Assembly: GCA_947589545.1 (NCBI GenBank)
Contig: CANQBA010000030.1
Coordinates: 1-43,775, forward strand
Length of the DNA stretch: 43,775 nt
Reading direction: 5' to 3'
DNA from: an uncultured Oscillospiraceae bacterium
GTDB taxonomy: Bacteria; Bacillota; Clostridia; Oscillospirales; Oscillospiraceae
Under the pieces are notes generated by a model. That model searched no databases, was not told the DNA's origin, and saw only the letters and a program-made list of their open reading frames with translations. Numbering within the stretch: position 1 is the stretch's first letter; the number at the start of each line of letters is the position of its first letter. A program made the translations under genes and the position numbers. Of this stretch, positions 9,191 through 16,448 are shown one piece after another.

Positions 9191-9317
9191 ACGGGCCGCA
9201 TTGGGGCCCCCGCGCGGCTGTCGCCGCGTGGGGATAGGAGGAGCGAACCGTGCGAGTGAGGGCGAACACTTGCAGCCCGAGCCATCGCCGGTTCCGCGAC
9301 GACGTCGGCCGGCCCGT
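9191..9317 (+). ncRNA. Candidate structured RNA module R1, copy 1
   Basis: A 68-nt core (9236-9303) is repeated at 16209-16142 on the minus strand with one difference. Five elements can be drawn: closing stem ACGGGCC (9191-9197)/GGCCCGT (9311-9317); a hairpin at 9208-9233 with a 10-bp stem; GCGAACC (9243-9249) pairing with GGTT-C-CGC (9290-9297); hairpin TGCGAGTG (9251-9258)/CACTTGCA (9267-9274); and a possible pseudoknot from GGCGA in that hairpin's loop to TCGCC (9285-9289). The closing stem and first hairpin have other sequences in copy 2 but still pair. No promoter is obvious upstream. It does not match an RNA family I know. Confidence 0.55.
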
Positions 9318-9355
9318 TCCTTCGTCTACCACCCAACTTTCATCATACGCCGTAG

Positions 9356-9413
9356 GGGCCGCCTCTCTTGGCGGCCCGCCGAATTCCCGGCGCATTTCAT
9401 ACAACGCACCCGT
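9356..9413. repeat. GC-hairpin repeat copy d joined to 34-bp repeat R4
   Basis: GGGCCGCC / GGCGGCCC at 9356-9377 is followed at 9380-9413 by a 34-bp unit starting CGAATTCCCGGCGCATTTC. The unit recurs at 29246-29279 with 2 differences, there placed before a GC hairpin instead of after it. Its first 15 bases recur at 12365-12379. The 455-bp gap between the PL9 gene and recG holds only these repeats, R1 and the recG promoter. Confidence 0.65.
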
Positions 9414-9451
9414 GGCCCTCCCATTTTCTCCTTCCCATTCGGAAAAATTTG

Positions 9452-9460
9452 TGCTACAAT
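9452..9460 (+). promoter_or_regulatory. Extended -10 promoter for recG
   Basis: TG-C-TACAAT, an extended -10 box (TGnTATAAT) 32 bp before the recG start. No good -35 is visible, which is usual for extended -10 promoters. Confidence 0.5.
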
Positions 9461-9492
9461 GGGTTACAGTAGAACGTGAAGGGGGGAGAGCC

Positions 9493-11550
9493 GTGGGCGT
9501 GCTGGAAACGGAAGTCCAATTCATCAAGGGCGTGGGGGAGCAGCGGGCCAAGGCCTTCGCCAAGCTGGGCGTGGAGACGCTGCGGGATCTGGTGATGGCC
9601 TTTCCCAGGGCCTATGACGACCGGACGGCGGTCAAGACCATCGGGGAGCTTCAAATCGGGGAGATGTGCTGTGTCAGCGCCACGGTGGCCGCACCCGCCA
9701 GGCTTTCCCGGGTGCGCCGGGGCCTGGAGATCACCAAATGCGCGGTGGTGGACGAGACGGCCCGGATGAACGTGGTCTTCTTCAACCAGAGCTACGTGGG
9801 GAAGAACCTGATCCCCGGCGAGAGCTACATCTTCTATGGCCGGGTGGGGGGCCGCATCGGCGCGCCGGAGATGCAAAATCCGGTGATGGAACGGGAAGCC
9901 CTGCCGCCGGCCTTCACCCGCCGCATCGTGCCCGTTTACCGGATGACCGCCGGCCTCTCCCAGCGGGTCTTCGCCAACGCCGTCCGCCAGGGCCTGGAGA
10001 AATGCGGCGAGGCGCTGCCCGAACAGCTGCCGGAGAGCGTCCGCAAGCGCTACAAGCTTGCCCAGACCCGGTTCTCCTACGAGAATATCCACTTTCCCCG
10101 GGACGCGGAGAGCCTGGAGCTGGCCCGCCGCCGGCTGATCTTTGAGGAATTTTTCGTTCTGAGCTGTACCCTGTCCTTCCTGCGCTCCCGCCAGCGGGAG
10201 AAGTCCGGGAAACGGGTGTCCGTGCCGGACATGGCCCCCTTCTACAAGGCTCTGCCCTACGCGCTGACGGGGGCCCAGAAACGCGCCGTGGAGGATATTT
10301 TGCGGGATCTGGCGGGGGAGCGCCCCATGTCAAGGCTTGTGCAGGGGGACGTGGGCTCCGGCAAGACGGCGGTGGCCGCCGCCGCGGCCTACGCGGTCGT
10401 TCAGGACGGCCGTCAGGCGGCCTTCATGGCCCCAACGGAGATCCTGGCGGAACAGCACTACCAGACCCTTTCAAAGCTCCTGGCGCCCCTGGGCGTCCGT
10501 GTGGGCCTGCTCACCGGGGGCCTGACGGTCAAACAGAAGCGGGAGGAGCAGGGGCGGCTCCGCTCCGGCGAGACCCAGCTCGTCATCGGCACCCATGCCC
10601 TGATCTCTGAGAGCGTGGAATTTGCCGACCTGGGCCTGATCATCGCCGACGAACAGCACCGCTTCGGCGTCCAACAGCGGGCGGCCCTCTCCGACAAGGG
10701 CGACACGCCCCACGTGCTGGTCATGTCCGCCACGCCCATCCCGCGCACCCTGGCTCTCATCGTCTACGGGGATCTGGACGTGTCCGTCATCGACGAGCTG
10801 CCCCCGGGCCGCCAGACCGTGGACACGTTCCTGGTGGGGGAGGACAAGCGCCAGCGGCTCTATGCCTTCGTCCGCAAGCATGTGGCCCAGGGCCGCCAGG
10901 TGTTCATTGTCTGTCCGGCGGTGGAGGAGTCCGAGGAGAACCCGGACGGGCTCAAGTCCGTGAAGGAGTACGCCCGGGAGCTGTCCGAGAAGGTCTTCCC
11001 CGACCTGCGGGTGGCCCTGGTCCACGGGAAGCTGAAGCCCAAAGAGAAGAATGAGGTGATGGCCTCCTTCGCGGCGGGGGACGTGGATATCCTGGTTGCA
11101 ACCACGGTCATCGAGGTGGGCGTGGACGTGCCCAACGCCACGCTGATGGTGGTGGAGAACGCCGACCGGTTCGGCCTCTCCCAGCTCCACCAGCTCCGGG
11201 GGCGCGTGGGGCGCGGGCCGTATAAATCCACCTGCGTGCTGATCCGCTCCGGCGGGGGCGAGGCCGCCACAGAGCGCCTCCGGGCCTTCTGCCGGACAAA
11301 CGACGGCTTTAAGATCGCCGAGGAGGATCTGGCCATCCGCGGCCCCGGGGACTTCTTCGGCTCCCGCCAGAGCGGTCTGCCCGACATGAACATCGCCAGC
11401 TTCGCCACGGATCTCGACATGCTCCGCTCCGCCCAGACCGCCGCCAAAGAGCTGCTGGAGGACGACCCCGGCCTTGCAAAGCCGGAGAACGCCCCCCTCC
11501 GGGAGAGCGTATCCCGGATGCTGGAGAAAAACAGGGGGACACTGAACTGA
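9493..11550 (+). CDS. recG: ATP-dependent DNA helicase RecG
   Basis: Branch-migrating helicase that regresses stalled replication forks and processes Holliday junctions. With GTG 9493 as start (purine-rich GGGGGGAG just upstream) the protein has 685 residues, the usual RecG size; the longer open frame upstream translates repeat DNA. The N-terminal wedge/OB domain begins with FIKGVGEQRAKAF. Walker A GDVGSGKT is at 285-292, DEQH at 386-389, followed by SATPIPRTLAL and the helicase C-terminal motif QLRGRVGRG. The stop codon shares its A with the ATG of the next gene (TGATG), so the two are translationally coupled. GTG 9499 is a possible alternative start. Confidence 0.96.
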   Translation: MGVLETEVQFIKGVGEQRAKAFAKLGVETLRDLVMAFPRAYDDRTAVKTIGELQIGEMCCVSATVAAPARLSRVRRGLEITKCAVVDETARMNVVFFNQSYVGKNLIPGESYIFYGRVGGRIGAPEMQNPVMEREALPPAFTRRIVPVYRMTAGLSQRVFANAVRQGLEKCGEALPEQLPESVRKRYKLAQTRFSYENIHFPRDAESLELARRRLIFEEFFVLSCTLSFLRSRQREKSGKRVSVPDMAPFYKALPYALTGAQKRAVEDILRDLAGERPMSRLVQGDVGSGKTAVAAAAAYAVVQDGRQAAFMAPTEILAEQHYQTLSKLLAPLGVRVGLLTGGLTVKQKREEQGRLRSGETQLVIGTHALISESVEFADLGLIIADEQHRFGVQQRAALSDKGDTPHVLVMSATPIPRTLALIVYGDLDVSVIDELPPGRQTVDTFLVGEDKRQRLYAFVRKHVAQGRQVFIVCPAVEESEENPDGLKSVKEYARELSEKVFPDLRVALVHGKLKPKEKNEVMASFAAGDVDILVATTVIEVGVDVPNATLMVVENADRFGLSQLHQLRGRVGRGPYKSTCVLIRSGGGEAATERLRAFCRTNDGFKIAEEDLAIRGPGDFFGSRQSGLPDMNIASFATDLDMLRSAQTAAKELLEDDPGLAKPENAPLRESVSRMLEKNRGTLN

Positions 11551-14793: not shown

Positions 14794-16032
14794 ATGAAGA
14801 CCCCTTTCGCGACAAAGGAGAAGTTCCAGGAGATCGCGGCGGAATACGGCACGCCCATCCACATCTACGACGAGCGCGGCATCCGTGAGAACGCCCGCCG
14901 CCTGAACCGGGCGTTTTCCTGGAATCCCGGCTATAAGGAGTATTTCGCCGTCAAGGCGACGCCCACACCGAAGATCCTGAAGATCCTCAAGGAGGAGGGC
15001 TGCGGGGTGGACTGCTCCAGCCTCACCGAGCTTATGATGAGCGAAAGATGCGGTTTTTCCGGCTCCGATATCATGTTCTCCTCCAACGAGACGCCCGTGG
15101 CCGACATGAAGAAGGCCCGGGAGCTGGGGGCGTACATAAACCTGGACGACTACACCCATGTCAAGTTCTTAAACGACATCTGCGGCATCCCCGAGACGAT
15201 CTGCTGCCGCTTCAACCCCGGCGGCGTGTTCTCCGTGGCCAACCAGATCATGGATAACCCCCGGGACGCCAAATACGGCATGACCCGGGGCCAGATGAAG
15301 AGCGCCTACCGGGACCTGCTGGCCCTGGGGGCCAAAAATTTCGGCATCCACGCCTTTTTGGTGTCCAACGCCATCTTCAACGAGTACTATCCCATGATGG
15401 CCCGCCAGCTCTTTCAGCTGGCCGTGGAGCTCCATCAGGCCACCGGCGCGCATATCGAGTTCGTGAACCTGTCCGGCGGCATCGGCATCCCGTACTATCC
15501 CGACCAGCTGGCTCCCAACATCGAGGTCATCGCCGCCGGCGTCCGGGAGGCCTACAACGAGATCCTTGTCCCCGCCGGGATGGGGGACGTGAAGATCTTC
15601 ACGGAGCTGGGCCGGTACATGCTGGGCCCCTACGGGTGCCTGCTGACCCGCGCCATCCACGAGAAGCACATCTACAAGGAGTACATCGGCGTGGACGCCT
15701 GCGCCTGCAACCTGATGCGCCCGGCCATGTACGGCGCGTACCACCACATCACCGTCCTGGGCAAGGAGGACGCCCCCCACGACCACCTGTACGACGTGGT
15801 GGGGAGCCTGTGCGAGAATAACGACAAGTTTGCCATCGACCGGGAGCTGCCGGAGATCGACACCGGGGATCTTCTGGTGATCCACGACACCGGCGCCCAC
15901 GGCCACGCCATGGGCTACAACTACAACGGCAAGCTCCGCTCCGCCGAGGTGCTCCTGCGCGAGGACGGCACCACCGAGCTCATCCGCCGCGCCGAGACCC
16001 CGGACGATTATTTTGCCACGATGATCTTCTGA
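14794..16032 (+). CDS. lysA: Diaminopimelate decarboxylase
   Basis: PLP enzyme that decarboxylates meso-diaminopimelate to L-lysine, the last step of lysine synthesis. The 412-residue length is normal. An alanine-racemase-type barrel carries the PLP lysine Lys54 in YFAVKATP, the phosphate-binding glycines in NLSGGIGIP, and the C-terminal beta domain contributes DACACNLMRPAMYGAYH. ATG 14794 follows GGAGGG at good spacing. The gene stands alone, with no other lysine genes in the window. Its stop codon is directly followed by the R3 end of the composite repeat. Related ornithine/arginine decarboxylases of this fold are possible but less likely. Confidence 0.88.
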   Translation: MKTPFATKEKFQEIAAEYGTPIHIYDERGIRENARRLNRAFSWNPGYKEYFAVKATPTPKILKILKEEGCGVDCSSLTELMMSERCGFSGSDIMFSSNETPVADMKKARELGAYINLDDYTHVKFLNDICGIPETICCRFNPGGVFSVANQIMDNPRDAKYGMTRGQMKSAYRDLLALGAKNFGIHAFLVSNAIFNEYYPMMARQLFQLAVELHQATGAHIEFVNLSGGIGIPYYPDQLAPNIEVIAAGVREAYNEILVPAGMGDVKIFTELGRYMLGPYGCLLTRAIHEKHIYKEYIGVDACACNLMRPAMYGAYHHITVLGKEDAPHDHLYDVVGSLCENNDKFAIDRELPEIDTGDLLVIHDTGAHGHAMGYNYNGKLRSAEVLLREDGTTELIRRAETPDDYFATMIF

Positions 16033-16325
16033 ATAAGGTGTCCGCCTTATAGGCGGACGGTGATTTGCTTTTCTCCTTTTGGATTTCCAAAAGGAGAAAA
16101 GGCAACAAAAGAGGAAAAGAAACCAGAGGGGGGCTTTCCAAGTCGTCGCGGAACCGGCGATGGCTCGGGCTGCAAGTGTTCGCCCTCACTCGCACAGTTC
16201 GCTCCTCCTTTCCCCATCGGGCCGTCGCCCGATGGGGGCCCCGTCCCCTCTGGACTCCCCCTTTTAAAAACGACCACACAGGGGCCTGCGGGCCCCTATG
16301 TGGAGAACCCCGGGGAACGCCCGCG
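16033..16325 (-). repeat. Composite repeat element, full form (modules R2, R1, palindrome, R3)
   Basis: Read on the minus strand the order is R2 (16325-16281), R1 (16253-16123), a 34-nt hairpin with 16-bp arms (16101-16068, CTTTTCTCC... with a 2-base loop), and R3 (16058-16033, GTCCGCC/GGCGGAC then CCTTATT). R2 here extends into a 13-bp stem, CCACACAGGGGCC/GGCCCCTATGTGG, at 16274-16303. Fragments recur at 3483-3558 (R2+R3) and 9191-9317 (R1). No coding frame is conserved between copies. It could be a non-autonomous mobile element or a family of RNA genes. Confidence 0.7.
16123..16253 (-). ncRNA. Candidate structured RNA module R1, copy 2
   Basis: Closing stem CCAGAGGGG (16123-16131)/CCCCTCTGG (16245-16253) and an 11-bp hairpin at 16212-16237 (CCCCATCGGGC/GCCCGATGGGG) replace the differently sequenced but equally paired stems of copy 1. 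The 68-nt core (16142-16209) differs by one base, which changes a C-G pair to U-G in the inner stem. An extended -10 box about 200 bp upstream on the same strand could drive it. Confidence 0.58.
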
Positions 16326-16448
16326 GGAAGACGGACGCGGGAAGGGGATTTCCTCACGCACGGAATTTTCCCCATATTTTTTCCCCCTCAATGCACAATC
16401 CATCCGTACGGGCCGGACACCCGGCCGGCCTTTGGTTCGATTTTCCGT

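Follow-up and report, generated by a model that had tools for sequence, protein, structure and literature searches.

A small, strongly folded and probably mobile element in the loops of two different hairpin repeats of an Oscillospiraceae genome

REP/BIME, ERIC and BOX sequences and the Rickettsia palindromic elements are short, high-copy, hairpin-rich bacterial repeats, and they are sometimes read through inside genes. HEARO, the omegaRNA of IscB (RF02033), is a compact structured RNA linked to mobile DNA. Group I introns carry an internal guide sequence whose complement lies on either side of the insertion point. We analysed 43,775 nt from an uncultured Oscillospiraceae bacterium (contig CANQBA010000030.1; this whole stretch is the window), in which two stretches are copies of one small, strongly folded mobile element, here named E, that recurs in many copies among gut Clostridia and is also present in some of their phages. 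Like the palindromic repeats, E is short (~102-113 nt), high-copy, dispersed and hairpin-forming. Unlike them, it folds into several helices on one strand and ends sharply at the 3' side, and it comes with inverted target arms and duplicated gene ends. E shares with HEARO that it is compact, structured and tied to mobile DNA, but the HEARO covariance model had no match at an E-value ≤10 in the window's own genome. The arm that lies 5' of E could pair with the sequence on either side of the insertion point, like the guide of group I introns and IStrons. However, E is only ~105 nt long, no Rfam intron model matched a group I or group II catalytic core in the window or in 20 loci of other genomes, and a copy that lies antisense to lepA (L277) speaks against splicing as a general rule.

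The preliminary description of this DNA had placed two copies of a repeat at 9191-9317 (+) and 16253-16123 (-), and both are present. By model matches, the element itself (GGGG...GACGACG) spans 9203-9304 on the + strand (copy 1) and 16141-16242 on the - strand (copy 2). The 68-nt stretch common to the two (AGGAGG...GACGAC) differs at one position, as had been noted. The window has exactly two occurrences of a 33-nt core, which was absent from all 100 shuffles, and a chance origin of core and fold was rejected on the shuffle controls together with the covariation controls given below. Copy 1 is flanked by a gene encoding an S-layer-domain/beta-helix protein and by recG. The recG frame (9250-11550, +) is open upstream into copy 1, and its mechanical start is a GTG inside the element, while the RecG domains begin past 9493. 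Copy 2 has as neighbours an ftsH-like gene (AAA and peptidase M41 domains) and a convergent gene for a PLP-dependent decarboxylase.

The closing stems (ACGGGCC/GGCCCGT in copy 1, CCAGAGGGG/CCCCTCTGG in copy 2) had been read as compensatory change in one RNA. They do pair fully, but they belong to two different host hairpin repeats, whose arms they form and whose loops hold E. Copy 1 lies within a GTACGGGCC palindrome (9191-9317, +; ACGGGCC 9191-9197 with GGCCCGT 9311-9317) that does not belong to E, and E-less palindromes of the same kind adjoin two other copies (L014 and L017; n = 2, by eye). The loop that holds copy 2 belongs to a high-copy hairpin repeat (16031-16371, -) that measures ~230 bp without E and has very many copies in the genome and the genus, with query matches in 18 of the 21 genomes of the genus. 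Among 20 fetched stretches of this repeat, 15 lacked E (L364-L377 and L382), two of them from the window's own genome (C20 and C48), four carried E (L378-L381), and the remaining one (L383) was a different locus. On the evidence of the E-less copies, we rejected the closing stem as part of the putative RNA. A universal closing stem was rejected on flank-match frequencies by genome: exact inverted flanks of at least 7 nt were found at 31% of the own-genome copies (against 9.5%), at 14% of the copies in other genomes (against 7%, a mild enrichment), and at 63% (against 60%) in genome G020, where E lies inside GGGACGGTT/AACCGTCCC palindromes and all copies share one palindrome. Both window copies are passengers in the loops of two different host hairpin repeats.

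Covariance model searches of related genomes, which the preliminary description had proposed, yielded many further matches with two models. R1 was built from 14 copies including those of the window, and it contained only the helices HP1 and P2. An alignment (A6) was then made from 38 R1 matches in 28 loci of other genomes, with two poor rows (L058:858 and L059:182) retained, and it was used to build R2; the alignment was thus made by a model whose seed included the window copies. Within the window, R2 found exactly the two E places (E-values 1.5e-11 and 2.1e-11). HP1 of copy 1 (CCCCGCGCGGC / GCCGCGTGGGG, 9208-9233, +) is seen in the fold and in the covariation of the family, and HP1 of copy 2 (16212-16237, -) in the fold. 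These first hairpins had been called unrelated in sequence yet fully paired; the pairing is complete, but the difference in sequence applies to the inner part only, as CCCC/GGGG is common at the base. AGGAGG (9236-9241, +), the most conserved stretch, follows HP1 and is a candidate built-in Shine-Dalgarno sequence. Next come helix P2 (9243-9297, +; 9243-9255 with 9285-9297, U9251 and C9294 bulged) and hairpin P3 (9260-9278, +; GGGC 9260-9263 with GCCC 9275-9278), which is seen in both fold and covariation and to which the inner hairpin described earlier for the core corresponds.

Against dinucleotide shuffles, the fold z-scores were -2.41 for copy 1 and -4.98 for copy 2. In A6, 91.8% of the cells were paired in the structure including P3, and 26 of the 29 pairs changed on both sides (226 such cells). 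The covariation was 0.585. Shuffles gave 0.210, with none of the 500 reaching the observed value, and sliding the structure gave no more than 0.148, so the stems covary beyond both kinds of control, as those of a structured RNA do. The covariation of HP1 and P2 leans on R1. P3 was absent from that model, and seven of its eight pairs change on both sides, with 81.7% of the cells paired. The foot of P2 seems, by eye, to alternate between tandem G.A and Watson-Crick pairs. The earlier suggestion of a selected fold with compensatory stem changes was therefore borne out by the covariation on A6, but the closing stems and the pseudoknot that it had included are not part of this fold. The pseudoknot can be drawn in the window copies (GCGAGUG:CACUUGC), but we rejected it as a conserved feature of the family, because pairings of at least 5 bp were found in only 11 of the 54 parsable copies and the variants lacked compensation. 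In alignments fitted to R2, G.U cells outnumbered A.C cells by 290 to 41. This excess points to the sense strand as the folded one, to which the conserved fold would then belong. A plain terminator or palindrome was rejected in view of the multi-helix fold on one strand. The 3' end of E is sharp (GACGACG).

No Rfam 15 family fits E at the gathering score, in line with the first impression that it belonged to no known family. Rfam had no match in the window, and on 20 loci of other genomes it matched only rRNA, tRNA and tmRNA, all beside E. Near the window copies, only sub-threshold, chance-like matches were found at E-values ≤10, the best of them being Phe_leader on a neighbouring hairpin (26 bits, cut-off 55). 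A match to a known transposon end had also been considered: E does behave like a mobile element, but no nameable element was matched. A literature search over the main text of open-access papers returned nothing recognisable as a description of E. Some members of the E family may already be among the 3161 structured RNA candidates that have been catalogued from human microbiomes (PMC8040213); nothing recognisable as E appears in the main-text passages compared. E is apparently an unnamed but real and widespread structured mobile element.

Searched with the core pattern at up to three mismatches, the window's own genome (3.83 Mb, 148 contigs) yielded two more copies. With 150 of 2050 candidates scored, there were at least 65 model matches at an E-value ≤1 and at least 58 at ≤1e-3; some of these copies are in tandem and some are nested (read by eye). 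R1 matched 53 of the 101 genomes of the family at an E-value ≤1e-3, and the copy counts in these genomes are lower bounds with at most 39 candidates scored per genome. R2 matched 63 of 291 genomes of the class at ≤1e-4 and 5 of 299 genomes of the phylum at ≤1e-5, three of the latter outside the class. In named genomes, 85 stretches matched an exact 31-nt pattern, and among the 80 of them listed were sequences from Pseudoflavonifractor, Oscillibacter, Flintibacter muris, Intestinimonas, Dysosmobacter, Colidextribacter, Gemmiger, Caproiciproducens and Fusibacillus. Hits L008-L011 and L013 were dropped as short, the element being absent by eye.

Tandem runs occur in L122 (1037-1472), L087 (670-1324) and L276 (672-1086), and the spacing in L122 is exactly 164 bp across three copies. 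In L063 (1501-1613, +), E lies inside an uninterrupted frame of 726 codons, with an EF-G-like C-terminus on one side and a YacP-like NYN domain on the other, and it may be translated within this frame. In L072 (1501-1604, +), a copy ends 4 nt ahead of a tmRNA gene, and a copy in L228 (1501-1600, -) is amid an rRNA operon, between the genes for large-subunit rRNA and tRNA.

E is also found in phage DNA. Pfam identified an operon of phage head and tail genes (terminase, portal, capsid and tail) around the E copies of genome G638 (L394) and a prophage tail protein at the E locus of genome G434 (L400), and an identical E is present at the homologous site of genome G258. The gene after the phage E encodes a head-completion protein with 352 relatives on phage contigs. 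E is just upstream in 6 of the best 80 of these (2 by script, 4 by eye); the other 74 have no E within the 60 nt printed, and the common E-less junction is GGAAGGTGTAAAT and then ATG. Of the 50,697 phage records, 2 matched a composite E query, as did 1 of the 72,556 plasmid records, and an exact pattern scan of viral contigs gave 0 matches. On a mobilizable plasmid of Subdoligranulum variabile (L393, OY725877.1), a stretch that matches E in part (70% of the query) lies ~1.8 kb away from a gene predicted to confer aminoglycoside resistance.

In 13 of the 214 distinct copies from genomes other than G000 and G020, an ATG lies exactly 2 nt past E. The ATG had to open at least 60 codons to be counted, and some of the 13 frames are unconfirmed as genes. 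The background rate was 1.28 per offset at offsets 10-59. By eye the 13 cases make up ~9 contexts, and the Poisson p is ~1e-9 for 13 and ~1e-5 for 9. At a spacing of 2 nt, the usual position of a ribosome-binding site is occupied by E's own 3' end, so that E's AGGAGG would do the work. Judged from its position, AGGAGG is a putative built-in ribosome-binding site.

At 17 sites in other genomes, the end of the neighbouring gene is repeated on the other side of E, as a direct repeat of 19-131 bp starting 2-3 nt after the element. These sites were drawn from ~145 copies compared first, 165 distinct later copies, and L143. Cases with other offsets or shorter repeats (L061, offset +58; L114, 14 nt; L312, 12 nt) and a second row of L308 were dropped, as were repeats that came from tandem or overlapping E copies (L122, L087, L006, L123, L124, L129, L232, L184 twice, L183, L278, and L276:777 twice) and apparent duplicates (L241 of L067; L316, which has the same repeat, arm and positions as L057). 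The target genes were rpoD in two genera (L012, L143), rplQ (L067, L276, L294), flagellin (L139, L194, L274), pgk (L249, L245, L308), NAD synthase (L070), tpiA (L059), formate-tetrahydrofolate ligase (L178), a pyruvate:ferredoxin oxidoreductase-like gene (L057, for which Pfam gave TPP and Fer4 only), a gene that we take to be GroEL-like (L247), and a lepA-like gene in which E is antisense at the 5' end (L277). Pfam covered 13 of the 17 sites (all but L067, L276, L194 and L247). In the set of ~145 copies, no own-genome copy had a direct repeat starting at +2 or +3. In the displayed sense cases, the upstream copy of the gene end retains the frame and the stop codon. One copy of the target gene is left intact, and E appears to settle without breaking genes.

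The bases ahead of E are related to the target as well. At all of the first seven sites, a stretch of 8-21 nt that ends 0-17 nt short of E reads as the reverse complement of the target sequence spanning the insertion point; at six of them none of 2000 control windows was as good, and the p for tpiA was 0.09. Overall, inverted arms were found at 15 of the 17 sites, the later set being scored without control windows. In L276 the arm lies ahead of the tandem run of E copies. The two exceptions are lepA, with a 13-nt inverted copy of one side inside the repeat, and rplQ in L294, where the arm covers one side only. At pgk, a tandem pair of units is present in L249, and in L308 a similar arm that lacks E comes after the right copy. 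Two of 30 fetched rpoD-like loci carry E, both at the same place, and 26 of the 30 have a recognisable gene end.

The two copies of a gene end differed by 22 synonymous and 4 non-synonymous changes at 14 of the 17 sites (all but L139, L143 and L277). With expected fractions of 0.63 and 0.27, which are our rough figures, this excess has a p of ~1e-9 if both copies drifted freely and 0.015 if one did. Both copies thus look recently functional, and one of them looks as if it came from a related genome. A diversity-generating retroelement was rejected, since the differences between gene-end copies are mostly synonymous.

High copy number, the sharp 3' end, occurrence in prophages and phages, placement in hairpin loops, and duplication of gene ends all argue for mobility. 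We put the probability at roughly 0.7 that E is a non-autonomous mobile element whose sense strand carries the conserved structure HP1, P2 and P3; its fold and mobility are well supported. The folded sense strand, as RNA or single-stranded DNA, would be what is moved or recognised. Since the bases just 5' of E are the inverted target across the insertion point, the target might be picked by base pairing. The P2/P3 helix would bring AGGAGG near the 3' end, where it could act as a built-in ribosome-binding site and keep the following gene translated. It is possible, though less likely than not, that E is a base-pairing-directed element, in which a ~105-nt fold with a 5' guide would place its sharp 3' end at a chosen point of a conserved gene, together with a replacement gene end that leaves the host unharmed and a helix-bridged ribosome-binding site. 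An inverted target copy combined with a spare gene end is a signature that, to our knowledge, fits no known transposition mechanism.

The gene-end duplications could also have arisen if site-specific recombination or homologous integration transferred a unit of gene end, inverted arm and E from one related genome to another, the unit carrying its own replacement gene end like an integrating cassette. The 22:4 synonymous bias, the tandem units at pgk in L249 and the use of the same gene in different genera (rpoD, rplQ, pgk, flagellin) agree with this. However, we saw no linked recombinase and no circle, donor or recipient pair, and single copies in hairpin loops are left unexplained, so that this explanation is possible but doubtful. 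Alternatively, E might be a mainly useful regulatory RNA (a translation or 3'-end element, or an sRNA) with mobility secondary. Strong covariation, the ATG at 2 nt in 13 of 214 copies and the position ahead of the tmRNA gene would suit such a role, but most copies inspected share no common neighbour gene, and E also lies within hairpin repeats, within coding frames and within further copies of itself, which makes such a role unlikely.

Two further explanations name an enzyme. In target-primed reverse transcription, the 5' arm would open the target and E would be copied from its 3' end, with a guide and primer-binding logic as in a prime-editing guide RNA. The sharp 3' end, the variable 5' side and the direct repeats of 19-131 bp would follow, and the 5' arm matches the target while the 3' flank is complementary to part of the 5' arm or the target. 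RVT_1 and Y1_Tnp were the only protein families compared with the presence of E. RVT_1 was weakly commoner with E (21 of the 53 genomes with E and 9 of the 48 without it, p = 0.03), which makes a role for a reverse transcriptase possible; but G020, which is 100% complete and has at least 39 matches, has no RVT_1 at an E-value ≤1e-6, and we regard this mechanism as improbable. Alternatively, Y1 (IS200/REP-associated) transposases might mobilise E as a hairpin of single-stranded DNA. Its placement in hairpin loops and the REP-like palindromes fit, and the sense-strand fold could form in single-stranded DNA as well, but Y1_Tnp was present in 17 of the 53 genomes with E and 10 of the 48 without it (p = 0.26) and absent from G046 (100% complete, 9 matches) and G089 (97%, 19 matches); there seems little chance that this is the mechanism. 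No near-complete genome with at least six matches lacks both families, and the four genomes with at least six matches and neither family are only 65-88% complete, so that E might need either one or the other. Pfam on ten frames near E copies revealed no common partner.

A high-copy, strongly covarying element that occurs across many Clostridia and yet is absent from Rfam is notable alone. If the base-pairing-directed reading is true, E would represent a new type of compact, guided mobile element. Should base pairing choose the target, E would be a very compact natural guided-insertion system, and the spread of tiny bacterial repeats without an obvious enzyme would become directly testable.
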